A stretch of DNA of 50,314 nucleotides, from positions 1 through 50,314 of the forward strand of contig AUJT01000028.1 in NCBI GenBank assembly GCA_000424365.1, written 5' to 3'. The notes under the pieces were generated by a model. That model was not told the origin of the DNA and ran no database searches. It was given only the letters and a program-made list of their open reading frames with translations. Shown piece after piece: positions 26,054-46,340 of the stretch. Within the stretch, counting starts at the first letter, position 1. Each line of letters starts with the position of its first letter. The DNA comes from Lachnospiraceae bacterium NK4A144 (GTDB taxonomy: Bacteria > Bacillota > Clostridia > Lachnospirales > Lachnospiraceae). Position numbers and translations under genes: made by a program.

Positions 26054-26247
26054 ATGATGTAAGGGTCAAAAGTAAATTTTGCCCCTTACTGATGTCACGG
26101 ATTGCTTCATTGCTACGCAATTCCCGCAATCCTAAAACACTCGCATTCCGCGTAATAACGCTACTTGCTTGTGTTTTGCGGGTTCCAAGGTCGCAATCCT
26201 CTTTGTGCAAGCACAATCGGATTTTGACCTTTTGACCCTGACATCAT
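26054..26247. repeat. Palindromic modular intergenic element, full copy (family a), inside an ABC operon
   Basis: A 194-bp element with ends ATGATGTAAGGGTCAAAAG and CTTTTGACCCTGACATCAT. In order it forms a hairpin AAGGGTCAAAA/TTTTGCCCCTT, a hairpin GGATTGC/GCAATCC, a hairpin AAAACAC/GTGTTTT around CTCGCATTCCGCG, and a hairpin AATCC/GGATT around TTGTGCAAGCACAA. The left end can pair either with its near partner or with the far right end. It lies between the ATPase and binding-protein genes, so it is probably transcribed on the minus strand. Confidence 0.88.
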
Positions 26248-34538: not shown

Positions 34539-34617
34539 TAATTGATATGTTTTGAAACTGATAATCAGAAACACGCATTTACTGCGGGGTTCGTACGAAA
34601 GTTTTCACTGAACAGAA

Positions 34618-34650
34618 ATGGGCAATTTTTGAATGCGAAGCATTGCCCAT
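34618..34650. repeat. Hairpin with the TTTGAATGCGAAGCAT motif
   Basis: ATGGGCAA pairs with TTGCCCAT, and inside it ATGC-GAA-GCAT forms a short hairpin after TTTGA. The inner motif is the same as in the large elements at 34797 and 45948 (TTTGAGATGCGAAGCATC). Confidence 0.65.
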
Positions 34651-34687
34651 GTCAAAAGTCATGATTATCTAAAATAGGACCTATAAA

Positions 34688-34732: not shown

Positions 34733-34796
34733 TATTCAAGAAAATAAGTTGGTATATTAGATTCTAACCATGTTGTTTCCAGTAGTGAAAACGTAA

Positions 34797-34989
34797 GTGT
34801 AAAACGTATAACTATATCCTGGAGCAATCAGCCGGCAGCACTTGGCGAATACGCTGCCCGAATAGGAAATTTCTGCGCACTGTTTGAGATGCGAAGCATC
34901 GAGTTGGGCAGAAATTTCCGAGTATATGAGGGCGGTGCGTGAGCTTAGTGCAGTCCGAGCGCGAAAGGATATAGTTATACGTTTTGCAC
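34797..34989. repeat. Large multi-helix palindromic element (family b), copy 1
   Basis: Helices: outer 24 bp at 34797-34820/34966-34989 (one G-U); CAGCACT 34836-34842 with 34947-34953; GCTGCCC region 34853-34859 with 34930-34935; GGAAATTTCTGC 34865-34876 with 34908-34919; and GATGC-GAA-GCATC at 34888-34900. The single-strand stretches AATCAGCCGGCAG, CGAATAGG, TTTGAGATGCGAAGCATCGA, GAGCTTAG and GTCCGAGCG recur in the copy at 45948-46142, whose helices have other sequences. It lies between the symporter terminator and the pgi element. Confidence 0.92.
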
Positions 34990-35163
34990 GTGCCTTGATG
35001 CGAAAATGTATATGTATAATGTTTCTGCTATGATAAAAAGCTATTTTTATGTCAGTGAGTAAAGGATTATTAAAAAAGACCGATAAATTTAAATAGGGCA
35101 TGAAAAGAACATTGTTAATAAAAAATCACAATGTCCTTGCTAATTACAAGCGAAACGGTCATA

Positions 35164-35365
35164 ATATGAAGTCAGGGTAAAAAACAATTTTTTTACCCTG
35201 ACCGATGACACGAATTGCTACGCTGCTAAAGCAGCTCGCGCAATTCTAAAACACTCGCATTCCGCGTAATACGCTACATGCTCATGTTTTGCGGGTTCCA
35301 AATAAAAAATCCTTTTTGTGCAAGCACAATCGGATTTTTTACTTTTAACCCTGTCATTATCATAT
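35164..35365. repeat. Palindromic modular intergenic element, full copy (family a), before pgi
   Basis: About 200 bp with the same hairpin order as the element at 26054. The first hairpin is CAGGGTAAAAA/TTTTTACCCTG, where the base changes relative to 26054 keep the pairing. Then come GAATTGC/GCAATTC, then AAAACA/TGTTTT around CTCGCATTCCGCG, then AAAAATCC/GGATTTTT around TTGTGCAAGCACAA, and the far end TTTTAACCCTG. It ends 20 nt before the -10 of pgi. Confidence 0.88.
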
Positions 35366-35384
35366 TTTCGTGCATGCCTACATA

Positions 35385-35390
35385 TATAAT
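35385..35390 (+). promoter_or_regulatory. -10 box upstream of pgi
   Basis: A perfect TATAAT lies 52 nt before the pgi start. The -35 would fall at the right end of the palindromic element (about 35362-35367), so the element may touch this promoter. Confidence 0.5.
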
Positions 35391-35442
35391 AGGAAACCGT
35401 ACAATGGATTCCTGACGGCATCAGAGAAGGAGGATTATTTAA

Positions 35443-37023
35443 ATGATTAATTGGAAAAATCTTGATACACTGAAGTCTTTTGAAGAACTCAGCAAAGTAG
35501 CCCGTGTAGACCTCGTAAAGGCTATGAGCGGCGAAAGCGGAGCAGAGCGTGTAAAGAAGTACTCCGTACCGATGGCTGAGGGAATGGCATATAACTATGC
35601 TGCAAAAGAAGTAGATGATGACGTACTCGCAGCACTTGCAAAGCTTGCTGATGAAGCACAGCTCACAGAAAAGTACGAAGAGCTCTACAACGGCGCAGTT
35701 ATCAATACAGGTGAAAAGAGAATGGTTCTTCACCAGCTCACACGTGGACAGCTTGGAAATAAAGTAGAAGCTGACGGCGTAGACAAGAGAGAGTTCTACA
35801 AGAAAGAGCAGAAGAGAATCGCAGAATTTGCAGAAAAGGTACACTCCGGTGCGATCGCAAACGCAGCAGGCGAGAAGTTTACAACAGTAGTACAGATCGG
35901 TATCGGCGGAAGTGATCTCGGTCCTCGCGCTATGTACCTCGCTCTTGAGAACTGGGCAAAGAAGAACAATAAGTTCAAGATGGAAGCAAAGTTCATCAGT
36001 AACGTAGATCCTGATGATGCATCAGCAGTACTTAATTCTATCGATGTAGCACACTCCATCTTTATCCTCGTATCAAAGTCCGGTACAACACTTGAGACAC
36101 TTACAAATCAGTCCTTCGTAATGGATGCACTGAAGAAGGCTGGTCTTGAGCCGGCTAAGCATATGATCGCTGTAACATCCGAGACATCACCGCTTGCACA
36201 CAGCGATGACTTTATCGAAGCATTCTACATGGATGATTATATCGGTGGACGTTACTCCTCAACATCAGGCGTAGGTGGAGCAGTGCTTTCACTCGCATTT
36301 GGCCCTGATGTATTCGCAGAGTTCCTTGACGGAGCAGCAGCTGAGGATAAGCTCGCTACAGAGAAGGATCTCCTGAAGAACCCGGCTATGCTCGATGCAC
36401 TTATCGGTGTATATGAGAGAAACGTACTTGGTTATCCGAGCACAGCAATCCTTCCGTACTCTCAGGGACTTAGCCGTTTCCCGGCACACCTGCAGCAGCT
36501 TGATATGGAGTCTAACGGTAAGTCTGTTAACCGTTTTGGTGAGCCTATCGACTATGTAACAGGACCGGTAATCTTCGGTGAACCCGGTACAAACGGCCAG
36601 CACTCCTTCTATCAGCTCCTTCACCAGGGAACAGACATCGTTCCGATGCAGTTCATCGGCTTCAAGAACAGCCAGATCGCAAACGATGTAGACATCCAGG
36701 GCAGCACAAGCCAGCAGAAGCTCTGCGCAAATGTAGCAGCTCAGATCGTAGCATTTGCATGTGGTAAGGCTGATGACAATAAGAATAAGAACTTCGAGGG
36801 CGGACGTCCGTCCAGCATCATCATTGGTGATCAGCTGAATCCGAAGACACTCGGCGCACTCCTTGCTCACTTCGAGAACAAGGTTATGTTCCAGGGCTTC
36901 GTATGGAACGTAAACAGTTTCGATCAGGAAGGTGTTCAGCTTGGTAAGGTCCTTGCAAAGAAGGTTCTTGCACACGAGACAGACGGAGCGCTCACAGAGT
37001 ACAGCAAGCTTCTTAATATCTGA
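35443..37023 (+). CDS. pgi: Glucose-6-phosphate isomerase
   Basis: A 526-aa enzyme that interconverts glucose 6-phosphate and fructose 6-phosphate. Signatures are IGIGGSDLGPRAMYLAL, SKSGTTLETLTNQ for phosphate binding, GGRYSSTSGVGGA, and the C-terminal region with VNSFDQEGVQLGKVL. The length is that of the longer bacterial form rather than the 450-aa clostridial form. Codon bias is strong, as in fba. GAAGGAGG lies upstream, and a strong terminator follows. Confidence 0.96.
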   Translation: MINWKNLDTLKSFEELSKVARVDLVKAMSGESGAERVKKYSVPMAEGMAYNYAAKEVDDDVLAALAKLADEAQLTEKYEELYNGAVINTGEKRMVLHQLTRGQLGNKVEADGVDKREFYKKEQKRIAEFAEKVHSGAIANAAGEKFTTVVQIGIGGSDLGPRAMYLALENWAKKNNKFKMEAKFISNVDPDDASAVLNSIDVAHSIFILVSKSGTTLETLTNQSFVMDALKKAGLEPAKHMIAVTSETSPLAHSDDFIEAFYMDDYIGGRYSSTSGVGGAVLSLAFGPDVFAEFLDGAAAEDKLATEKDLLKNPAMLDALIGVYERNVLGYPSTAILPYSQGLSRFPAHLQQLDMESNGKSVNRFGEPIDYVTGPVIFGEPGTNGQHSFYQLLHQGTDIVPMQFIGFKNSQIANDVDIQGSTSQQKLCANVAAQIVAFACGKADDNKNKNFEGGRPSSIIIGDQLNPKTLGALLAHFENKVMFQGFVWNVNSFDQEGVQLGKVLAKKVLAHETDGALTEYSKLLNI

Positions 37024-37049
37024 TAAACCAGCAATATAAAGAATTTATA

Positions 37050-37076
37050 GGGAGACCGCTTCGGCGGTCTCCTTTT
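37050..37076 (+). terminator. Intrinsic terminator of pgi
   Basis: GGAGACCGC pairs perfectly with GCGGTCTCC around a TTCG tetraloop, then four T. Confidence 0.9.
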
Positions 37077-37114
37077 CTATACTTTAAAATATACAAACGG
37101 TTGTTTTTTTACGA

Positions 37115-39043
37115 TTGTGGGGCTATGATACACAAGTAGAGAATTGGGTTATAAATATACAATGGGTGAGTAAATTGGGGATCACACAAACACTGAAAAA
37201 ACGGATAAAAGCGAACTGGATAAGTTTTGGTGATTTTATCAGAGAAGAAACAAATCTGATCGGTAAAAGCTGGAAGCAGGTTCTGCCTTTTATCCTTTTA
37301 TATACTTTTATAGGGGCACTGGTCAGAAATCTCGTTGGAGATACCATGAAGTGGTGCCTTGAAAAAATAATCGGCACAACATATATAGGACCGGAAAACC
37401 TCATATCAGCGATCACGTCCTTTAGAGCTATACTGCTCCTGCCGGTATTTGGGATAATAATCTCCTTCATATCCATAATGGAGATCGAAGCTCTCATATA
37501 TGGTTTCAGCATGGCTCGTATGGGCGCAAAGCCAACGATCACAGGTATGATGGCAGCTTCGCTCTATGCCTGTAAAAAAAGTGCACATCCGAGAAACTGG
37601 CTGATCATATTTTATGTAGTACTGCTGCTTCCTTTCACAAAGGTGTTGTCGCTTTCGAATGCGTCATCACTTTTGGAGATTCCCGGATTTGTAGAACAAT
37701 ATATAAGTGATAACGAAATATACAATCTGATCTATACAGCAATATATATCTTTTTTGTGGTAGTGGAATTCAAATGTATCTTTGCTCTGAACTGCTTCGT
37801 GTTGGAAGATATAGACTTTGTCTCCGCCTGTAAAAAGAGTCTCAGGCTGATACGGGGGAATTTTATTAAAACCGTCTCGATCCTGGGTATTTTATATGTG
37901 GTAGTTCATATTGTTATCGTATCCATTTCATCGGTAGTGTCCGCTAACTTTCAGGATCTGATAAGGCTGGTGCTTGGAAGCAATGGATCATTGTCCGAAG
38001 CATACAGGCTTGCAAACACGATATATCTGGTGAAAAGGTTCTTTGCTGCAGTTGCGTATCCCATGACAAATATCGCTGCGCTCACGACACTTTATTACGT
38101 CTATATGAAAGAAGCGCGCATAAAAACAGAAAGACCGAAGGTTTTTAATGAGTCAACACCTTCGGTCAGGCAGAAACTCATCGCAGCTGTTATTATCCTT
38201 AGTGCCGGAATATACGGTCTGATGGAAGTGCGTCCGTACCTTGGCTACATGACAGCAAAGCCCCATGAGCCGGGAATCGTAGCGCATAGAGGAGATTCTG
38301 TAGTAGCACCGGAAAACACTATGCCGGCATTTGAGCTGGCTCTTGCAGAAGAGCCGGAATGGGTGGAATTTGACGTCCATGAGACAAAAGACGGAGTGAT
38401 GGTCGTAAGTCATGATGACAATCTAAAGCGAGTCACCGGAAAAAAGGTATATGTACATGAACTTACTTATGAAGAACTTGAAAAACTTGACTGTGGTTCC
38501 TGGTTTTCGGATGAATATGCAGGGCTTAAGTTTTCGACATTTGATGAAGTACTGAAGACATTTAAGAACAGTAATATAAGGCTGCAGGTTGAGATCAAAC
38601 CTACAAAGTATGATCATGAATTAGAAGAAAAAGTGCTGCAGATCATAAATGATAACGGCATGCATGATCGCTGCATCATTACGAGCCTGAAAGCTGTGCC
38701 TCTAAAACGGATAAAAGAACTGGATCCTACCATGATCACGGCATATAGCATGTACATAGCATGGGATCATATAGAGGACATCACCTGGTCGGATTACTTT
38801 ACTATAGAAGAAAGCAACGTAACACCGGAACTCGTGGCAGACATTCATAAAGCCGGTAAAAAGTGCTTTGCATGGACTGTCAACTCAGAAGAAACAGTTC
38901 AAAATCTGGTGGACTGCAACGTGGACGGGATACTTACTGATGATCCTCAGATGATGTGGAATGCTTTGGATAAAGCAGATTATACCGGAGGAATCCGGAA
39001 ATTTATGAATATACTGGCAGATCGTTTAGTAGAAGGTTATTAA
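37115..39043 (+). CDS. Membrane-anchored glycerophosphodiester phosphodiesterase
   Basis: A 642-aa protein. The first 370 residues form a membrane domain with about seven hydrophobic segments (glycerophosphodiester phosphodiesterase membrane domain type). The C-terminal GDPD domain (about 385-630) has AHRGDSVVAPENTMPAFELAL, EFDVHETKDGVMVVSHDD with the catalytic His/Glu/Asp, and a QVEIKP pattern. It should release glycerol phosphate from lipid- or teichoic-acid-derived diesters outside or at the membrane. The start is uncertain: the listed TTG has no good ribosome site, and GTG or TTG starts 17-20 codons later are possible. Confidence 0.85.
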   Translation: MWGYDTQVENWVINIQWVSKLGITQTLKKRIKANWISFGDFIREETNLIGKSWKQVLPFILLYTFIGALVRNLVGDTMKWCLEKIIGTTYIGPENLISAITSFRAILLLPVFGIIISFISIMEIEALIYGFSMARMGAKPTITGMMAASLYACKKSAHPRNWLIIFYVVLLLPFTKVLSLSNASSLLEIPGFVEQYISDNEIYNLIYTAIYIFFVVVEFKCIFALNCFVLEDIDFVSACKKSLRLIRGNFIKTVSILGILYVVVHIVIVSISSVVSANFQDLIRLVLGSNGSLSEAYRLANTIYLVKRFFAAVAYPMTNIAALTTLYYVYMKEARIKTERPKVFNESTPSVRQKLIAAVIILSAGIYGLMEVRPYLGYMTAKPHEPGIVAHRGDSVVAPENTMPAFELALAEEPEWVEFDVHETKDGVMVVSHDDNLKRVTGKKVYVHELTYEELEKLDCGSWFSDEYAGLKFSTFDEVLKTFKNSNIRLQVEIKPTKYDHELEEKVLQIINDNGMHDRCIITSLKAVPLKRIKELDPTMITAYSMYIAWDHIEDITWSDYFTIEESNVTPELVADIHKAGKKCFAWTVNSEETVQNLVDCNVDGILTDDPQMMWNALDKADYTGGIRKFMNILADRLVEGY

Positions 39044-39048
39044 AAAAC

Positions 39049-39086
39049 TGCCCGGCAGGTTAAGTGAGCCTGCTGGGCAATTTTTT
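39049..39086 (+). terminator. Intrinsic terminator of the GDPD gene
   Basis: TGCCCGGCAGG pairs with CCTGCTGGGCA (one G-U), followed by ATTTTTT. Confidence 0.88.
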
Positions 39087-39096
39087 GTGCATTGTG

Positions 39097-39183
39097 CGGA
39101 GCACTTAGCGAGGTATTTTCGAGCTTAGTGCGTGCCATGCAAATTCACTTGGCGAGGTTTTATCGAGCCTAGTGATATTTGTT
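39097..39183. repeat. 87-bp double-hairpin repeat (family c), copy 2
   Basis: Second copy of the repeat at 30152-30238, in the same orientation and also directly after a terminator. About nine positions differ. The first hairpin is unchanged; in the second, AAGTTCGCT/AGCGTAACTT has become AAATTCACT/AGTGATATTT, with two pairs changed on both sides. Confidence 0.9.
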
Positions 39184-39202
39184 TTGATGCGCCGCGCGCG
39201 GA

Positions 39203-39231
39203 GAATCTGACAAAGTCGGATTCTTTGTTCT
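39203..39231. repeat. Hairpin repeat GAATCTGAC-AAA-GTCGGATTC followed by TTTGTTCT
   Basis: A 9-bp stem (one G-U) with a three-base loop. The right half and the following TTTGTTCT recur at 4501-4517 and 5366-5383. It lies just beyond the stop of the minus-strand cysteine desulfidase gene and could act as a terminator for a plus-strand transcript. Confidence 0.7.
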
Positions 39232-39239
39232 GGAAATTA

Positions 39240-40589
39240 TTAATCGGTATGAGTCATGATCTTTAAGATTTCCTGATCGGTAGCTCTCATGCCCTCTGAA
39301 CCGATATCTGAAACATTGCCTATGGTATTTTCGATATCGGAATCAAGGATACCGTCACCACCGTGGAATTTCTGACCGTACTGGCACATTTCAAAGCCCA
39401 TGATACCGGCATTTACAGAAAGAGCGATCTTTGCTGCACAGGATGGCTTCGCTCCGTCACAAATGATACCGGATGCAATAGCAAGGGAGTTTGACAAGGT
39501 CTGTGAAATAGTCTTGTAGTCAGCTCCGTACAGAAATGCTATGCCGCATCCTGCTGCACATCCCGCGCTAACCGCACCGCAAAAAGCAGAAAGTGCGCCG
39601 ATACCGTATTTAATGTGAACGGAAATAAGGTTTGAAATGAGCAAGGCGCGGAGCATGGTATCTTCGGAAACGCCAAGCTCTTTTGCATAAGTTATAACAG
39701 GCATTGTAACGGTGATGCCCTGATTACCGCTTCCGGAATTTATGACTACAGGGAGTTCGCAGCCGCTCATACGAGCATCGGATCCTGCGGCTGCATATGC
39801 CTGAGCCCTGTTTCTGACAGTGTTTCCGCCGGTTGCCAGCATGGTGCTTCCAATATTTGCGCCCCAGTTATTTTTAATACCCTCATTTGCTATAGCACTG
39901 TTGCACTTTATCTGACGGATAAGTATATCGCGAACAAGAGAAAGGTCGGTATTCTGGGCAAAATCAAGAATATTTGAAACAGTGAGCATAGCTTTTTTGG
40001 AAGCGATGCTGCTTGATGATTCGCAAGATTCTTCGTGTCCCGGAACAAAACCTGTATCGAGAAGAACATCGTTATTTTTCTTTTCAAAGATTATGTTTGT
40101 GTGGGTACGTGCTATCCTTACTTCGGAGCTGTCTTTTCCGGCAGAAAGGATTATGCGGATATACAGTTTTTCTGAATTTTTGGAAGCAGATACCGTTATG
40201 GGAGTATGAGAAAGAAAGTCTTTGATATCTACGCGATCCTGTTCAGTGATACCTGCGATCACTTCGAGTCTCAGTGAAGCGTCACCGGCTACGATACCTG
40301 CAGCAGCCGCTGCGGGAATTCCCTTCATTCCGTCAGTTCCGGGTACGACTACGCTCTTTGCATTCTTTATGATATTTCCGCTTACCTCGATCTCGCACTG
40401 ATCCGGAGTTTTTCCGAGTATACGGCGGGCTTCTGCGGCACAGTATGCGATTGCAATGGGTTCTGTGCAGCCGAGAGCCATATCAAGTTCATTTTTCAGG
40501 ATATCAGCAAAGTCAGTTTCGGTGAGATCACCATAAACATGATTAGCATTTTCTGTACTGATTTCTTTTGTTTCAAATGTGATCTTCAT
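39240..40589 (-). CDS. cyuA: L-cysteine desulfidase / serine dehydratase alpha-like protein (CyuA, UPF0597)
   Basis: A 449-aa protein of the CyuA/YhaM family, which degrades cysteine to pyruvate, ammonia and sulfide using an iron-sulfur cluster. The family start NELDMALGCTEPIAIAYCAAEARR, the glycine-rich NSGSGNQGITVTMPVITYAKE, CGAVSAGCAAGCGIAFLYGA and ICDGAKPSCAAK carry the conserved Cys ligands. GGGAGAA lies upstream. It is divergent from a LysR regulator, with a palindromic repeat (40697-40767) in between. Confidence 0.9.
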   Translation of the reverse strand: MKITFETKEISTENANHVYGDLTETDFADILKNELDMALGCTEPIAIAYCAAEARRILGKTPDQCEIEVSGNIIKNAKSVVVPGTDGMKGIPAAAAAGIVAGDASLRLEVIAGITEQDRVDIKDFLSHTPITVSASKNSEKLYIRIILSAGKDSSEVRIARTHTNIIFEKKNNDVLLDTGFVPGHEESCESSSSIASKKAMLTVSNILDFAQNTDLSLVRDILIRQIKCNSAIANEGIKNNWGANIGSTMLATGGNTVRNRAQAYAAAGSDARMSGCELPVVINSGSGNQGITVTMPVITYAKELGVSEDTMLRALLISNLISVHIKYGIGALSAFCGAVSAGCAAGCGIAFLYGADYKTISQTLSNSLAIASGIICDGAKPSCAAKIALSVNAGIMGFEMCQYGQKFHGGDGILDSDIENTIGNVSDIGSEGMRATDQEILKIMTHTD

Positions 40590-40696
40590 AGGCGTTCTCC
40601 CGGATTTGGTACTTTATTTTTTCATAATGTATCATGGAACTCTATATTTGAAAAATTGAAATAAATGAAAAGCCTTATTAATTATTTTGATATAAT

Positions 40697-40767
40697 GAAA
40701 ACGCGTAATGCTCGTGTTTTAGAATTGAGTGAGCTTCGTAAGAAGCGTAGCAATTCGTGTCATCATT
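40697..40767. repeat. Inner modules of a family a element, standing alone
   Basis: Read on the minus strand it gives AATGATGACACGAATTGCTA, a hairpin GAATTG/CAATTC around CGCTTC-TTAC-GAAGCTC, then a hairpin AAAACACG/CGCGTTTT around AGCATTA. These are the second and third hairpins of the element at 35164, without its outer ends. It sits in the divergent cyuA-lysR promoter region. Confidence 0.8.
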
Positions 40768-40789
40768 AAATGTCTCAAGGAGAGCGAAA

Positions 40790-41671
40790 ATGGAGTTTAA
40801 GAATCTCGATACATTTATAAGAGTTGCGGAACTGGAGAATTTTTCGGAAGCAGCGGAAGAACTTGGCTTTTCTCAGTCTACAGTTACTACTCAGATACAT
40901 ATGCTGGAGGAACAGCTGCATACTAAACTTTTTGACAGAAATGGAAAAAGGGTGAGTCTGTCTGCGGCAGGACGGAAGTTTCTGGAGTACAGCTATCGGA
41001 TAAGACAGGCAGAGGAAGAGGCGGCAGACTATTTCTTGAGGGAGCAGGAACCTGAGGGACTTTTACGGATCGGCATCATGGAATCGGTCTGTGCTTCGGG
41101 TTATGACAGGTATCTCATAGACTATATGCTGAAATATCCAAAAGTCACGGTAAAGCTGGAAGTCTGCACGACCTTTGAAGCTTTGGAACGCTTGGAAAAG
41201 GGAGAACTGGATGTGATCCTGACTCTCGATCACAGGATAAAGCGTGAAGACTGGGAAACAGTTTATGAAAAAGAAGAGGATATAGTCTTTTTCTGCTCGC
41301 CGGATCATCCTCTGGCAAAAAAGAAAAGTATAAAAGTTGAAGAACTGCTTACAGAAGATTTCCTTATGGTAGAAGAAAAGTGCAATTACAGAGAAGCCTT
41401 TGAACAGGACATGCAGACTCGTGGAAAAACTGTTAAATGCAGGATGGAGATAGGACACTGCGGAGTGATAATCGACGCAGCTGCCAAGGGACTCGGATTA
41501 TCACTTTTGCCGCGTTTTACCGTATGCGATGCTTTGGAGAAAGGTCGCGTTAAGGAATTAAATATATCTGACTATCATCTGCAAATGGATCTGCAGATGA
41601 TATATGACAAAAAACGTTGGAAAAGCCATGTATTAAAAGCATTTTTTGAAGTAATGGATATGCTGTGGTAA
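40790..41671 (+). CDS. LysR-family transcriptional regulator, probably of cyuA
   Basis: A 293-aa protein with an N-terminal LysR helix-turn-helix (FSEAAEELGFSQSTVTTQIHMLEEQ, about residues 16-40) and the two-lobed effector domain with ADP-type loop DVILTLDHR. Its divergence from cyuA suggests that it senses cysteine or a related thiol, which is inference. The ATG at 40790 follows AAGGAGAG; an earlier in-frame start at 40757 overlaps the palindromic repeat. Confidence 0.9.
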   Translation: MEFKNLDTFIRVAELENFSEAAEELGFSQSTVTTQIHMLEEQLHTKLFDRNGKRVSLSAAGRKFLEYSYRIRQAEEEAADYFLREQEPEGLLRIGIMESVCASGYDRYLIDYMLKYPKVTVKLEVCTTFEALERLEKGELDVILTLDHRIKREDWETVYEKEEDIVFFCSPDHPLAKKKSIKVEELLTEDFLMVEEKCNYREAFEQDMQTRGKTVKCRMEIGHCGVIIDAAAKGLGLSLLPRFTVCDALEKGRVKELNISDYHLQMDLQMIYDKKRWKSHVLKAFFEVMDMLW

Positions 41672-41730
41672 AATTTTCTATCAAAGGGAAAAGGTATTTG
41701 TAAGTATCAAAATGTGATCAGGAGGAGATT

Positions 41731-42126
41731 ATGGCTGGGATCAAAGACGCTTTTTCAAAGGGAATAACTACTATTAACATGAAAACAAACGGGCTTATGG
41801 AACAGAATAAGCTCAAGACATATATTTCTACACTTACACAGCAGGAGGAAGAACTGTACTCCAAGCTTGGACGTCTCATGTATCAGAACTGGAAAGAGGG
41901 AAGGATGGATACTTCTGTTTATACAGGAATGATGCAGGAAATAGATAAGAAAAAAGCAACTATCGCTGAGCAGCAGAAGAAGATCGAGGAGATAAAGGAG
42001 CAGGAAAATCAGGTACTTGGAACAGCAGGTCCGGCAGTTGATCCAAATGCTGTTTTTTGTGGTCATTGTGGTGCGCAGAATAATGCAGGAAGCAGATTTT
42101 GTTTCCGCTGCGGTCAGCAGTTGTAA
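41731..42126 (+). CDS. Coiled-coil protein with a C-terminal zinc ribbon
   Basis: A 131-aa soluble protein. Residues about 20-90 are charged and helical, likely a coiled coil (QQEEELYSKLGRL and AEQQKKIEEIKEQEN). The C-terminus FCGHCGAQNNAGSRFCFRCGQ is a double CxxC zinc ribbon. The next gene carries near-identical zinc ribbons, so the two may act together. AGGAGGAG lies upstream. The function is unknown. Confidence 0.85.
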   Translation: MAGIKDAFSKGITTINMKTNGLMEQNKLKTYISTLTQQEEELYSKLGRLMYQNWKEGRMDTSVYTGMMQEIDKKKATIAEQQKKIEEIKEQENQVLGTAGPAVDPNAVFCGHCGAQNNAGSRFCFRCGQQL

Positions 42127-42298
42127 TAGAAATGGATGACCTTAAGAAAATCTTATAAATTGAAACCGTATTATTTACAGGCTTTACTATGATATAATCA
42201 ACAAGACTGTCCATTATAAGATACATATATAAGAAACATGACAGTTTTTTGTCAGATATAGACTGACAACATAAGGAGAATATTAGGGAGGAAAAATT

Positions 42299-44620
42299 AT
42301 GTTCTGCACACATTGTGGGGCTAAGCTTGAGGACGGCGTAAGAGTCTGCCCGGTTTGCCATACAGAAGTAGAGTTTTTTGAAGAAGCAGGCACACCTGTG
42401 GCACCGGTTCAGGAGCCGGCACAGCCGATAGAGGAGCCTGTACAGCAGGTTGAAGAAAATGTACAGCCTGTACAGGAGCCTGTAGAAGAAAATGCACAGC
42501 CTGAGCAGGGCTACACGGAGTATACACTTCCGACTCAGGAAGAGACAGCTCAGGAACAGAGTTTTACAACATGGACAGAAGAGGTAACTGAGCCGGCACA
42601 GGAATTCGGAAATACAGAGGGAACAGAGCAGTTCTCACAGGATGAAATCCCGACTGCAGCAGGTACTCAGGGATTTATTTTCTGCACACGCTGCGGAGCT
42701 CAGAATGAAGAAGGAAATCAGTTCTGCGTATCTTGCGGAAATAGCCTTTTTGATTCAAATGAAGGCGCAAAGAAGCAGAAAGAGAAGGAAAAGAAGGGAT
42801 CTGCAGGAACAGTTCTTAAGATCGTGATCCCGATCCTGGCAGTTATCGTACTTGTAGTGATCGGTGTATTTGCAGTAGGAGCCCTTTTCAAGGGTAAGTC
42901 CAAAGCAAGTAACGGCATTGTATATATGAAGGATAATGATATCCTTGGAACAGGTTTCTCAAAGATCAAGCCGTATACTATCTGTGATCATTACGGTGAA
43001 GACACTGAAACAACTTATGTTGGTGTACAGTTCTCGGATGACGGAAAGTATATCTTCTATCCTGAGGACATTGAGTATGATGGAGGCTTTGAACTTCACT
43101 ATCGTAAGGCTTCTAATAAGAAGGGCGATGGAGAAAAGCTTGACAGCGATGTAAGACAGTTTGATGTTCTCAAGAATAATAAGGTTGTTTACAAGAAGGA
43201 TACAGATCTTTATATTACAGACCTCAAGGGAAATAAAGAGAAGTTTGCAAAGAGCGTATCTGAATACTACATTTCCAAGGATGAGACAAAGGTTCTCTGG
43301 AAAAATGACGAGAACGATCTCTACATCACACCTTTCAAGGGACTTGAGAAGGATAAGGTAGCTGGTGACGTTTATTCCATGTATGCATATTCTGATAACT
43401 TTGACAGGATCGTATATGGAGAACAGGATGATACTTCAGATACAGTGATCCTTCATACTGTTACAAAGAACAACAATACAAAGGTGTCTTCTTCTGTTCG
43501 AAATGTAAATGTAGTTGATATCGATGGAAAGACCGGTATTTACTATTTCAAGGATGGTGATTCAGTAAAATCAACTCTCTATGATTTCATCGATGACGAT
43601 ATGCTTGAAGCTGACAGCAAGATGGAAGAACCTGATATGGATGACTATAAGAAGACAAAGACGGTTCGGGGATTCTTTGGCTGGACAACTACTCAGACAG
43701 AGATAGATGATGAGTACTATGAGAAGCTGGATGAATATCGTGAGAAGGAGAGCCGCGACAGCATCAGAGAGAGCCTCAAGAAGCAGGAACTCGATACTCC
43801 TATGTCAGACCTTTACTACTACAATGCCGACAAGGATTCAAGTGATAAGATCGCAGAAAGTGTAATAGCAGCAAGTGACGATATTTACACATTTGGTGCA
43901 GACTGTCAGTTCTATACAGAACTTGATGAGGACAGTCTGAAGCGAAACAAGTTCTCTGATCTGATGAAGGGTGATTACTATTCAGCAATAAGCGGCATTG
44001 AGGAAAAGATCGGTAAGGGATCAAAGCTTTATGTTGCAAGCGGAAAAAATACTGCTGAGGTTGATCTCGATCTTTCAGATGTAGGTATTAGCAACTGTGC
44101 TCTTGATACTAAGAACGGACAGGTTTACCTGCTTGCGGTAGATCCGAAAGAGGATTCACCTACAGAGGGAGATCTTTACACCGTAAATTACGCAAAGAAC
44201 CTCGGTAAGATCAATAAGTACGATACATCTGTTTCCAGTATCGCAACAGTTGTAGATGGAGATATTTATTATCTGAAGGATGTAGATAAAAAGGATAACT
44301 CCGGAGATCTTTACAAGAACAAAGAATCCATCGATCACGATGTATATCAGTACAGAGTTATTGATGCAGGTGATGACGGAGAAATTTATTACTTCAAAGA
44401 TTATGATGAATCTGATTATGCAGGTACATTCTGCAAGGTAAGCAAGAATAAGTCTGTTGTGATCGCAGATGACGTATATAGCTTCAGATATTATGATTCA
44501 AATCACATCGCACTTCTCACAGATCATAGTGAAAAGCACAATACAAACGACCTCAAGCTTTATACAGGATCAAAGAAGCTTAAGGACATCGATACAGACG
44601 TAACTTATATTCTGTATTAA
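42299..44620 (+). CDS. Zinc-ribbon membrane protein with a large extracellular propeller-like domain
   Basis: A 773-aa protein. It starts with a zinc ribbon (CTHCG...CPVC, residues 3-20), then a Pro/Glu/Gln-rich linker with QEPVEEN-like repeats, a second zinc ribbon (CTRCGAQNEEGNQFCVSCG, about 130-148), and one membrane helix (about 174-195). The remaining 570 residues are rich in Tyr, Asp and Lys with recurring blade-like units (IYYLKDVD, LYITDLKG, IYYFKDYD), suggesting a beta-propeller outside the cell. It may be a surface sensor; no ligand is known. GGGAGG lies upstream. Confidence 0.85.
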   Translation: MFCTHCGAKLEDGVRVCPVCHTEVEFFEEAGTPVAPVQEPAQPIEEPVQQVEENVQPVQEPVEENAQPEQGYTEYTLPTQEETAQEQSFTTWTEEVTEPAQEFGNTEGTEQFSQDEIPTAAGTQGFIFCTRCGAQNEEGNQFCVSCGNSLFDSNEGAKKQKEKEKKGSAGTVLKIVIPILAVIVLVVIGVFAVGALFKGKSKASNGIVYMKDNDILGTGFSKIKPYTICDHYGEDTETTYVGVQFSDDGKYIFYPEDIEYDGGFELHYRKASNKKGDGEKLDSDVRQFDVLKNNKVVYKKDTDLYITDLKGNKEKFAKSVSEYYISKDETKVLWKNDENDLYITPFKGLEKDKVAGDVYSMYAYSDNFDRIVYGEQDDTSDTVILHTVTKNNNTKVSSSVRNVNVVDIDGKTGIYYFKDGDSVKSTLYDFIDDDMLEADSKMEEPDMDDYKKTKTVRGFFGWTTTQTEIDDEYYEKLDEYREKESRDSIRESLKKQELDTPMSDLYYYNADKDSSDKIAESVIAASDDIYTFGADCQFYTELDEDSLKRNKFSDLMKGDYYSAISGIEEKIGKGSKLYVASGKNTAEVDLDLSDVGISNCALDTKNGQVYLLAVDPKEDSPTEGDLYTVNYAKNLGKINKYDTSVSSIATVVDGDIYYLKDVDKKDNSGDLYKNKESIDHDVYQYRVIDAGDDGEIYYFKDYDESDYAGTFCKVSKNKSVVIADDVYSFRYYDSNHIALLTDHSEKHNTNDLKLYTGSKKLKDIDTDVTYILY

Positions 44621-44640
44621 TGGTAATATATTTGTTAGGG

Positions 44641-44666
44641 GCGGGGCCGTGAGGCCCTGCTCTTTT
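44641..44666 (+). terminator. Intrinsic terminator
   Basis: GCGGGGCC pairs with GGCCCTGC (one G-U) around GTGA, then TCTTTT. Confidence 0.75.
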
Positions 44667-44695
44667 GACTTATAGGAAATATTTTGTGTTAAACT
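44665..44695 (+). promoter_or_regulatory. Promoter of the ThrE operon, possibly leaderless
   Basis: -35-like TTGACT (44665-44670), 19-nt spacer, and extended -10 TGTTAAACT ending at 44695. The ATG is 7 nt beyond the -10, so transcription would begin at or next to the start codon. No ribosome site precedes the ATG. Confidence 0.5.
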
Positions 44696-44701
44696 AAGAC
44701 C

Positions 44702-45475
44702 ATGGAAAACGAACGTAAAAAAATGACTAAACTGGTCCATGCGCTTTTATGCATGGGCGAAGCGCTTGTGAGCTGCGGCGCGGAGATCTTTAGAGTTGAA
44801 GACACGCTTAATCGTGTTGGATATGCTTATGGCGCCTCAAATATGAATGTTTTTGTGATCACATCGAGCATAGTGATCACGATGGAAATGCCTGACGGTC
44901 AGCTGATGACTCATACCCGCAGGATCAGAAATGCGAATGGCACTGATTTTACGAGGCTTGAAAAATTAAATGAATTAAGCAGAGAGATCAGTTCGTCGCC
45001 GATTCCTCCGGAAAAACTCGAGGAAAGGATAAAAGAAATAGCATCCGGGAAATGCAGGAGAAGAGAACTGCTTGCGGGATATGTACTTGCGTCGGCGTTT
45101 TTTACGATATTTTTCGGAGGCTCTCTCTATGATGCTGCAGCGGCAGGTGTTGTCGGTGTATTTATATGGATCCTCGCGATATACCTCATGCCTTTCTGCA
45201 TGAATAACGTGGTCTATCAGTTTTCAGCATCGCTGTTATCTGGACTGCTCATATGTGCGGCAGCTAAGATCTTTCCGGTACTTAGCATGGAGCACATCAT
45301 GATAGGAGATATAATGCTCCTGATCCCCGGAATCATGTTCACAAATTCTCTTAGAGATGTTTTGCTCGGAGACACGATTTCCGGAGCAATGAGACTTATA
45401 GAAGCTATACTCCTGACATTTGCGCTGGTGCTTGGATTTGTAGCTGCAATCTGGATAGTAGGGAGGGCTTTATGA
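44702..45475 (+). CDS. Threonine/serine exporter family protein, N-terminal subunit (ThrE domain 1)
   Basis: A 257-aa protein with a cytosolic N-terminal domain (EALVSCGAEIFRVEDTLNRV, then VFVITSSIVITM) and about five membrane segments after residue 125, ending with LLIPGIMFTNSLRDVLLGDTISG, the signature of this family. In Corynebacterium a single ThrE carries both parts; here the partner is the next gene, overlapping by 4 nt. The complex should export threonine or serine, or a related small metabolite. No ribosome site is seen; the transcript may be leaderless. Confidence 0.9.
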   Translation: MENERKKMTKLVHALLCMGEALVSCGAEIFRVEDTLNRVGYAYGASNMNVFVITSSIVITMEMPDGQLMTHTRRIRNANGTDFTRLEKLNELSREISSSPIPPEKLEERIKEIASGKCRRRELLAGYVLASAFFTIFFGGSLYDAAAAGVVGVFIWILAIYLMPFCMNNVVYQFSASLLSGLLICAAAKIFPVLSMEHIMIGDIMLLIPGIMFTNSLRDVLLGDTISGAMRLIEAILLTFALVLGFVAAIWIVGRAL

Positions 45476-45912
45476 GAGATGCGATAATACAGCTCATCAC
45501 CGGAGCGGTTGGATCGGTGGGATTTGCGCTGGTATTTCATGTTAGAAAGAGCTATTTTTTGCACGTGCTGGCAGGAAGTATTTTATGTTGGGGAACATAT
45601 CTCGCGGCAACAGCTGCTCTTGGCGGTACTGAAGTATTTATTCCGACATTGATATCGGGTTTTGTGACTGCGATCTTTGCGGAGATCCTTGCACGTGTGT
45701 GCAAGGCCCCGTCGACTGTCTTCTTTATGACTTCTATCATACCGCTTATCCCGGGACGTACACTTTTTTACTTTATGCAGGCGATCGTCAGGGAGCAGTA
45801 TAGTCAGGCATCGAATTATGGAATGGCAACATTTCTCACAGCCCTCGGCATCGCTCTTGGTATGAGCGCCGCCTGGACGATCTGCGACTTTTCAAGAAAG
45901 ATCGGGCGGTAA
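45472..45912 (+). CDS. Threonine/serine exporter family protein, C-terminal subunit (ThrE domain 2)
   Basis: A 146-aa protein with four or five membrane segments and the family pattern SGFVTAIFAEILARVCKAPSTVFFMTSIIPLIPGRTLFYFMQ. Its start overlaps the stop of the first subunit (ATGA), so the two are coupled. It ends the operon. Confidence 0.92.
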   Translation: MRDAIIQLITGAVGSVGFALVFHVRKSYFLHVLAGSILCWGTYLAATAALGGTEVFIPTLISGFVTAIFAEILARVCKAPSTVFFMTSIIPLIPGRTLFYFMQAIVREQYSQASNYGMATFLTALGIALGMSAAWTICDFSRKIGR

Positions 45913-45947
45913 AAAGTGTATTTGAATTGATTTTTGGCTTTCCGGAC

Positions 45948-46142
45948 AGTGCAGGTATGATAGTTATTTCTTTCCACGCTCGGACAGTTCTAAGCTCATG
46001 CACTGTCCTCATGAACACGGAAATTTTCGCATAACTCGATGCTTCGCATCTCAAACAGTATGCGAAAATTTCCTATTCGGACAGTGCATTTGCTAAGAAC
46101 TGCCGGCTGATTGTTACAAGAAATAACTATCATACCTGCACT
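45948..46142. repeat. Large multi-helix palindromic element (family b), copy 2
   Basis: In reverse orientation to copy 1. Helices: perfect 25-bp outer stem 45948-45972/46118-46142; CAGTTCT 45985-45991 with 46096-46102; ATGCACTGTCC 45998-46008 with 46079-46089; a perfect 14-bp stem 46019-46032/46060-46073; and GATGC-TTC-GCATC at 46038-46050. Nearly every helix has a different sequence from copy 1 yet is fully paired, while the loops are kept. It lies between the ThrE genes and the GH3 gene. Confidence 0.93.
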
Positions 46143-46211
46143 TGTATTACGATTGACTAAAGAATTTATGCTTACTGATAAATATACACTTTCGGAAACA
46201 ATGATGAAAAA

Positions 46212-46242: not shown

Positions 46243-46340
46243 TCTTTGAGACGATTTTTGATACACTGAGTAGGTGCTGCTGTTTAAGGAAGGTACGAGA
46301 TTGCACGTGACTTGGACTTATAAGAAAGGCAAAATGAAAA

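Follow-up and report, generated by a model that had tools for sequence, protein, structure and literature searches.

A genus-specific interspersed palindromic repeat family in Lachnospiraceae, probably shaped by template switching and conversion

The contig AUJT01000028.1 of Lachnospiraceae bacterium NK4A144 (assembly GCA_000424365.1), the whole 50,314 nucleotides of which were analysed here and are termed the window, contains two hairpins of about 195 bp in opposite orientation, the stems of which differ in sequence and yet remain paired. The question raised by this locus is whether such hairpins represent a structured RNA maintained by selection on a transcript, or a palindromic DNA repeat of which the arms are kept complementary by another process. 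It is demonstrated below that they belong to a new family of bacterial interspersed palindromic repeats, of the kind of ERIC, YPAL and bcr1, to which it is tied by description, and that the evolution of this family is unusual. On balance, we consider it probable that the family is genus-specific, and that template switching and conversion have shaped it; one folded strand may still be in use.

Copy 1 is located at 34794-34992 (+) and copy 2 at 45946-46144 (-), with paired parts at approximately 34797-34989 and 45948-46142, respectively. A covariance model built from 13 copies of the source genome (model R1; source genome G000) matched copy 1 with 213.8 bits (E = 1.3e-42) and copy 2 with 218.3 bits (E = 1.4e-43). 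Folded as RNA, copy 1 attains a minimum free energy of -100.8 kcal/mol (z = -8.37; 34780-35005, +) and copy 2 of -110.6 kcal/mol (z = -14.06; 45935-46155, -), and in neither case was any of 200 shuffled sequences as stable. The same nested helices in both copies, and the unpaired stretches kept between them, had been described in a first reading of the window made from the letters alone (the sequence-only reading), and both descriptions hold. The conserved 5' motif lies at 34825-34845 (+) in copy 1 (CAATCAGCCGGCAG..CTTGG, one mismatch) and at 46093-46113 (-) in copy 2 (CAATCAGCCGGCAG..CTTAG, no mismatches), while the fixed tip TTTGAGATGCGAAGCATCGAGTT is matched exactly at 34883-34905 (+) and 46033-46055 (-). 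Inside both tips stands GCGAAGC, which we take to be an unusually stable DNA mini-hairpin and which would favour a role at the DNA level. The outer stems had been called unrelated, which is incorrect: 14 of 25 positions of the outer 5' arm are the same and 152 of 202 aligned columns are identical overall, implying that the window copies are homologous and have diverged within a single family.

The tip sequence matches 13 places in the source genome with at most three mismatches, compared with none for a reversed-pattern control. Model R1 recovers 21 full copies there, together with three shorter copies of 142, 123 and 112 bp, and all 24 matches to the 5' motif (at most three mismatches) fall within known, truncated or remnant hairpins. 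Among the source genome and 60 relatives, R1 matches were obtained in 19 of 61 genomes, every one within the same genus (37 genomes searched), and none of the 24 genomes from other families of the order gave a match; the counts for relatives include second-strand matches of the same palindromes, and weak matches are lost by the filters. Copy numbers are patchy, with some 20-30 in G000, G009, G030 and G013, and no element found by the R1 search in G032 (4.2 Mb, 3 contigs). Outside the listed model matches, the 5' motif is also present in G030 (C1:234210, and C11:6473 with 3 mismatches) and at some places in G009. The motif pattern retrieved 75 stretches across the genome collection, comprising 72 titled Lachnospiraceae, two Acetatifactor sp., likewise a Lachnospiraceae genus, and one Bacteroides sp. 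214; rumen samples are named in many of the titles. The Bacteroides match (L174) is without the family hairpin fold (-29.1 kcal/mol) and was taken as chance. No match to the pattern was found in viral contigs, nor any match to copy 2 among plasmid and phage sequences. The family of palindromic elements that the sequence-only reading had proposed is thus borne out by the full copies in the source genome, by those in congeneric genomes and by the strong covariation described below.

No known RNA class had been recognised at the hairpins, and the Rfam comparison agrees: at gathering score the window holds two Clostridiales-1 RNAs and three tRNAs, with nothing at the hairpins, and eight loci of other subfamilies yielded nothing but a tRNA. 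A relaxed search of three element loci returned Clostridiales-1 and three matches far below threshold. Two matches overlapping hairpins in the relaxed search, mir-26 (18.8 of 57 bits) and rne5 (14.8 of 180), were taken as chance. At L013 253-290 (-), a CRISPR direct-repeat family is matched weakly and below threshold, with 27.4 bits against a gathering score of 50.

The element is a large intergenic hairpin of about 165-270 bp, composed of a variable outer stem of approximately 25 bp, a conserved internal-loop module and a subfamily-specific tip. The module consists of AGC-N8-CTTAG-nGA on the 5' side and TGAGCTTAG...GAGC on the 3' side, variants included, and is retained in distant subfamilies, the stems and tips of which differ. 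Many dispersed copies within the range of about 50-300 bp, mostly intergenic and sharing one common stem-loop, correspond to what defines interspersed palindromic repeats. In 13 copies, 38 of 71 pairs are changed on both sides, compared with 19.4 ± 2.5 in 500 shuffles. In 53 copies the number rises to 56 of 71, compared with 31.7 ± 2.5 after shuffling and 17-23 with the partners slid; here the covariation score is 0.433 against 0.152 shuffled, and 95.8% of cells are paired against 29-45% with slid partners. Covariation is therefore better than either control. However, the step taken in the sequence-only reading from divergent but paired stems to selection on structure is unsafe, since template switching can yield the same pattern at the DNA level, so that compensation alone is no proof of RNA selection.

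Positional orthologues among G000, G030 and G009 comprise 19 pairs, in 15 of which the orthologue is the nearest copy (eight at 97-99.5% identity, four at 95-95.5% and three at 76-86%); in the remaining four, another family member occupies the site. Orthologous copies are often far more alike than their 150-bp flanks, as in L021/L055, where 201 of 202 element positions agree compared with 107 of 150 upstream. The inner part of L070 is 95% like its paralogue L054, while its outer part is at most 76% like any copy, a pattern suggestive of core conversion. In G013, 12 copies share 93.7% identity over the 158-nt core and only 54.9% and 54.2% over the arms, and 446 of 512 changed arm-pair comparisons are double changes from one Watson-Crick pair to another; these are 12 of the 13 copies with the 158-nt core, compared at a cut-off of at least 14 of 16 matching arm positions, a choice that favours complementarity. 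Five of the 22 G013 copies, one with the 158-nt core, fall below this cut-off through indels or decay and were excluded. Across all 22, the two arms of a copy match each other at 309 of 352 ungapped positions.

Moreover, in the G013-type subfamily the orientation of the core is opposite at four of seven orthologous sites among G013, G026, G029 and G001, or at four of eight if the ambiguous L269/L265, with the same orientation and flanks shared on one side, is included. At L268/L094 and L267/L207 the core is reversed inside visibly homologous arms. The candidate flip L031/L075 was rejected, being a divergent pair of which the left member is half deleted in L075. Between copies 80-90% alike, double changes in the outer stem comprise 319 transitions and 421 transversions, and the lack of a transition excess speaks against a route mainly through G-U; inner double changes display a slight excess (403 versus 292). 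It should be noted that double changes, arm comparisons and the G-U and A-C counts given below are non-independent owing to the shared ancestry of copies, the changes having been counted without placement on a tree.

Template switching between inverted repeats is described as homogenising the arms and inverting the spacers, and non-coding inverted-repeat regions of proteobacteria as more conserved than their surroundings (PMC8604942); the same process has been proposed for RNA hairpins, inverted loops included (PMC8794818). The arms, the orientation changes and the conservation of the hairpins studied here fit the template-switch predictions. New copies would arise by transposition or a hitch-hiking process. 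The complementarity of the arms would be upheld mainly by template switching, in which one arm is copied from the other and by which the core may also be flipped, and ectopic gene conversion would spread cores between loci. The fold may still be of use to a protein, or to a transcript at those loci from which the repeat is transcribed.

The last step relates to an asymmetry between strands. For the 53 copies, 115 G-U cells were counted against 43 A-C cells on one strand (outer stem 28:20, rest 87:23); two columns contribute 29 of the 115 and 11 of the 43, and 86 versus 32 are obtained when they are excluded. In 39 G013-type copies the numbers are 57 versus 19 (first 18 pairs 44:13, rest 13:6), this set consisting of 17 of the 22 G013 copies and 22 of 25 further matches after the exclusion of odd tips, two short forms and one duplicate. 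The excess on one strand is thus 2.7-3:1. Single changes in the 19 orthologue pairs display the same direction, with 25 G-U and 8 A-C in the inner part and 18 and 11 in the outer part (L016/L080 mis-stranded). Furthermore, the + strand is more stable than its complement in 47 of 53 copies as RNA and in 39 of 53 as DNA. The G-U excess suggests some, perhaps moderate, selection on one folded strand, since it does not follow from template switching.

Several observations weigh against the account based on template switching and conversion. Template switching treats both strands alike, so that the G-U excess is not expected from it, and the excess is mainly inner in the window's subfamily and mainly in the outer pairs in the G013 type. 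Homology of the arms can be seen at just two of the four sites with opposite orientation, independent insertion being possible at the others, and no flip occurs among the 19 positional pairs of the subfamily to which the window copies belong. Twelve copy pairs at least 90% alike have 32 one-sided changes versus two double changes; as one-sided changes prevail in the closest pairs, pairing would be restored with a delay, not at once. The near-identity of many orthologous copies can also mean a host function at each site. Finally, the analysis revealed neither a transposase nor a target-site duplication, nor any partner that could mobilise the element.

A different origin of the copies is possible, although we rate it as distinctly less probable: the hairpins would be miniature inverted-repeat transposable elements (MITEs) or REPIN-like elements that a transposase of the host moves in trans, such as a Y1/RAYT enzyme that acts on the folded single strand, and their structure would be kept only because active copies require it. 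The whole element is palindromic and therefore carries the terminal inverted repeats of a MITE, and it is present or absent at orthologous sites. Element E1 of G013 is absent in G029 and G007, E2 in G029 and G001, and E3 in G029, G001 and G026, and two elements are reciprocally present and absent between G013 and G029 (L095/L197); apparent losses leave stubs or half hairpins. Eleven close pairs of the window's subfamily, from seven distinct sites, were examined, and in every one the copies stand back to back, separated by 35-229 bp. In the same subfamily, 28 of 53 copies have partner sequence or remnants on their 5' side, compared with 3 of 53 on the 3' side. Outside these 11 pairs, G009:C130 has a + copy separated by 0.8 kb from a truncated - copy, with the order reversed, and G013:C36 and G026:C60 have two same-strand copies within 1.6 kb.

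Mobilisation by Y1/RAYT transposases was rejected, as these genes do not correlate with the element across 41 genomes: none is present in G009, which has 32 element matches, whereas 17 are present in G032, in which R1 found no element. The surroundings of 10 RAYT-like genes contain no R1 match at E up to 10, and a loose motif scan of them gave two weak matches (L253 and L258). Insertion into single-stranded DNA of the lagging strand was likewise rejected, the strand of the element agreeing with the local third-position GC skew at 33 of 61 copies and disagreeing at 28 of 61, in a test that counts orthologous loci of G000 and G030 both. No target-site duplication was evident by eye at filled and empty sites, the flanks of which are diverged, and a gene-bearing version with the same ends was not found among the 24 5'-motif matches inspected in G000. 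The three outcomes that the sequence-only reading had named as refuting it did not occur: other copies exist, covariation exceeds both controls, and no transposase was found to accompany the hairpins.

It is doubtful that the hairpins constitute a new class of structured noncoding RNA, in which copies would be transcribed from the + strand, the hairpin would bind a protein or act in trans, and selection on the RNA would keep the stems. The covariation over 13 and over 53 copies, the one-strand G-U excess, including that among single changes in orthologues, and the better folding of the + strand all favour it, as do the similarity of orthologous copies relative to their flanks and the predominance of one-sided changes in the closest copies. 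Against these stand the transcription signals and the genomic setting. A sigma-70-like score, used as the sole measure of a promoter, is 12.48 in the 5' flank, 12.36 in the 3'-flank control and 12.13 in shuffled sequence, and a T-run lies downstream in 5 of 53 copies, with no terminator signal above control. Copies occur in both orientations relative to neighbouring genes (29 ++, 23 --, 10 +-, 4 -+ and one with one side missing, among 67 copies), and the cores are opposite at four of the seven orthologous G013-type sites. Of the earlier suggestion of a structured RNA, one part is kept alive by the G-U excess; the remainder is opposed by these signals, orientations and cores.

It can also be imagined that the element is a single-strand hairpin, of RNA or DNA, in which a protein-binding module sits within locus-specific self-complementary "barcode" arms, the cassette spreading by conversion and flipping freely while a dedicated host protein recognises the folded strand; we regard this more specific proposal as improbable. 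Lowest in our estimate is a cis-acting mRNA element, whether terminator, stabiliser or 5'-leader regulator, which we consider quite unlikely, for although in the window's subfamily a gene start or stop is frequently no more than about 20-45 bp away from the 3' end of the element and divergent-gene spacers seem avoided (4 of 66 copies versus 65 of 313 spacers in 20-kb stretches and the window), orientations to genes are mixed, the core is reversed at some sites in related species, the neighbours have no common function, and no fixed orientation and place upstream of related genes was found.

Regarding the setting of individual copies, 45 of 67 overlap no open reading frame of at least 80 amino acids and 22 of 67 overlap one, these frames being mechanical and taken without evaluation. 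The neighbours in the window are an alanine symporter, phosphoglucose isomerase, a ThrE exporter and a GH3 enzyme; elsewhere, from 10 proteins at few loci, they include YgbB, GH3, an amidase, arginyl-tRNA synthetase, a permease and cobalamin genes. Copy 2 represents a pair with its partner missing, both hairpins being kept in G009 and G030: alignment of L017 with L102 and L065 reveals a short stub at 46300-46311, where G009 and G030 possess a second, divergent hairpin that the window lacks. A third, smaller hairpin, the presence of which the sequence-only reading had stated, lies 5' of copy 1 at 34618-34650; its tip is similar (GAATGCGAAGCATTG), and the region 34601-34660 folds at -18.0 kcal/mol. 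Its position, where other loci hold partners or remnants, suggests kinship to the family, possibly as a decayed partner; R1 gives no match there in the window at E 0.01, so that the hairpin itself is confirmed and its tie to the family only suggested.

Other repeats accompany the hairpins at certain loci. In the subfamily of G006, G025 and G027 (L048, L049, L062, L063, L097, L098 and L099), the tip loop is locus-specific, of roughly 30 nt, on a fixed scaffold; the loops are alike in the orthologues L049/L099 and L097/L098 and unlike in L048/L062. A short gatccttcgcttcgctcaggatgac-type repeat adjoins the hairpins at these same loci, two of which, L097 and L098, also have a further hairpin core arranged in tandem. 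Four G013 hairpins are nested between inverted small GGGAGACAGGGGGACGGTCC-type hairpins, as if composite (L196 8826-9093, L196 15980-16179, L199 4582-4785 and L205 10001-10200). Flanking inverted repeats of at least 12 matching bases accompany 5 of 22 G013 copies, four of them of the GGGAGACAGGGGGACGGTCC type, compared with 13 of 462 control pairs, and none of 19 copies in G000; a family rule of conserved flanking repeats was therefore rejected in favour of a local composite only. The two Clostridiales-1 RNAs (RF01699) of the window are located at 26090-26246 (-) and 35203-35359 (-). In G000 this RNA has 87 matches, 68 of them over the gathering score and 14 with the same 128.7 bits, and although typed by Rfam as sRNA, it behaves as a high-copy interspersed repeat.

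The hairpin family adds a large repeat family to the genomes of rumen Lachnospiraceae. Textbook covariation, usually taken as proof of a functional RNA, here coincides with signs of DNA-level arm copying, namely opposite cores between species, arms that turn over in pairs and an outer stem without transition bias. Since several genomes hold some 20-30 copies, and both multiple subfamilies and orthologous sites are available, the family could help to separate template switching from RNA selection, and a family of barcode hairpins, if real, would form a natural archive of how a structured nucleic acid evolves through template switches and cassettes. An earlier description of such a family in Lachnospiraceae was not found among the papers listed, judged by titles and abstract beginnings, a search that left subscription papers and preprints largely outside.

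Among known systems, the Clostridiales-1 RNA (RF01699), tabulated in PMC2864571, resembles the hairpins in being a structured repeat, in its size and in its occurrence in this genome and in the window; its model does not match them. REP/REPIN and TIRYT elements are associated with RAYT-type transposases (PMC3733652) and share with the hairpins the form of palindromic interspersed repeats and inverted doublets. As described there, REPs measure 20-40 bp, compared with about 200 bp here, and no linked Y1/RAYT gene was found for the hairpins. In the template-switch cases given for yeast genes, inverted spacers produced substitutions of 2-5 bp (PMC8604942), whereas the core concerned here spans about 160 bp and forms a hairpin of its own. 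The nearest likeness is with the stem-loop repeat families ERIC, YPAL, bcr1 and Efa-1, which are 50-300 bp in length, have many intergenic copies and have been described species by species (PMC2267715); bcr1-bcr3 are called MITE-like and often lie in untranslated regions or operon spacers (PMC3446304). No kinship to a named family emerged from Rfam, plasmids or phages, the stem-loop families being compared by description only. On that comparison, the hairpins share with ERIC, YPAL, bcr1 and Efa-1 the many intergenic stem-loop copies of comparable size, and differ, as far as the published descriptions extend, in their host, their fixed inner module, their variable complementary arms and the opposite cores between species.

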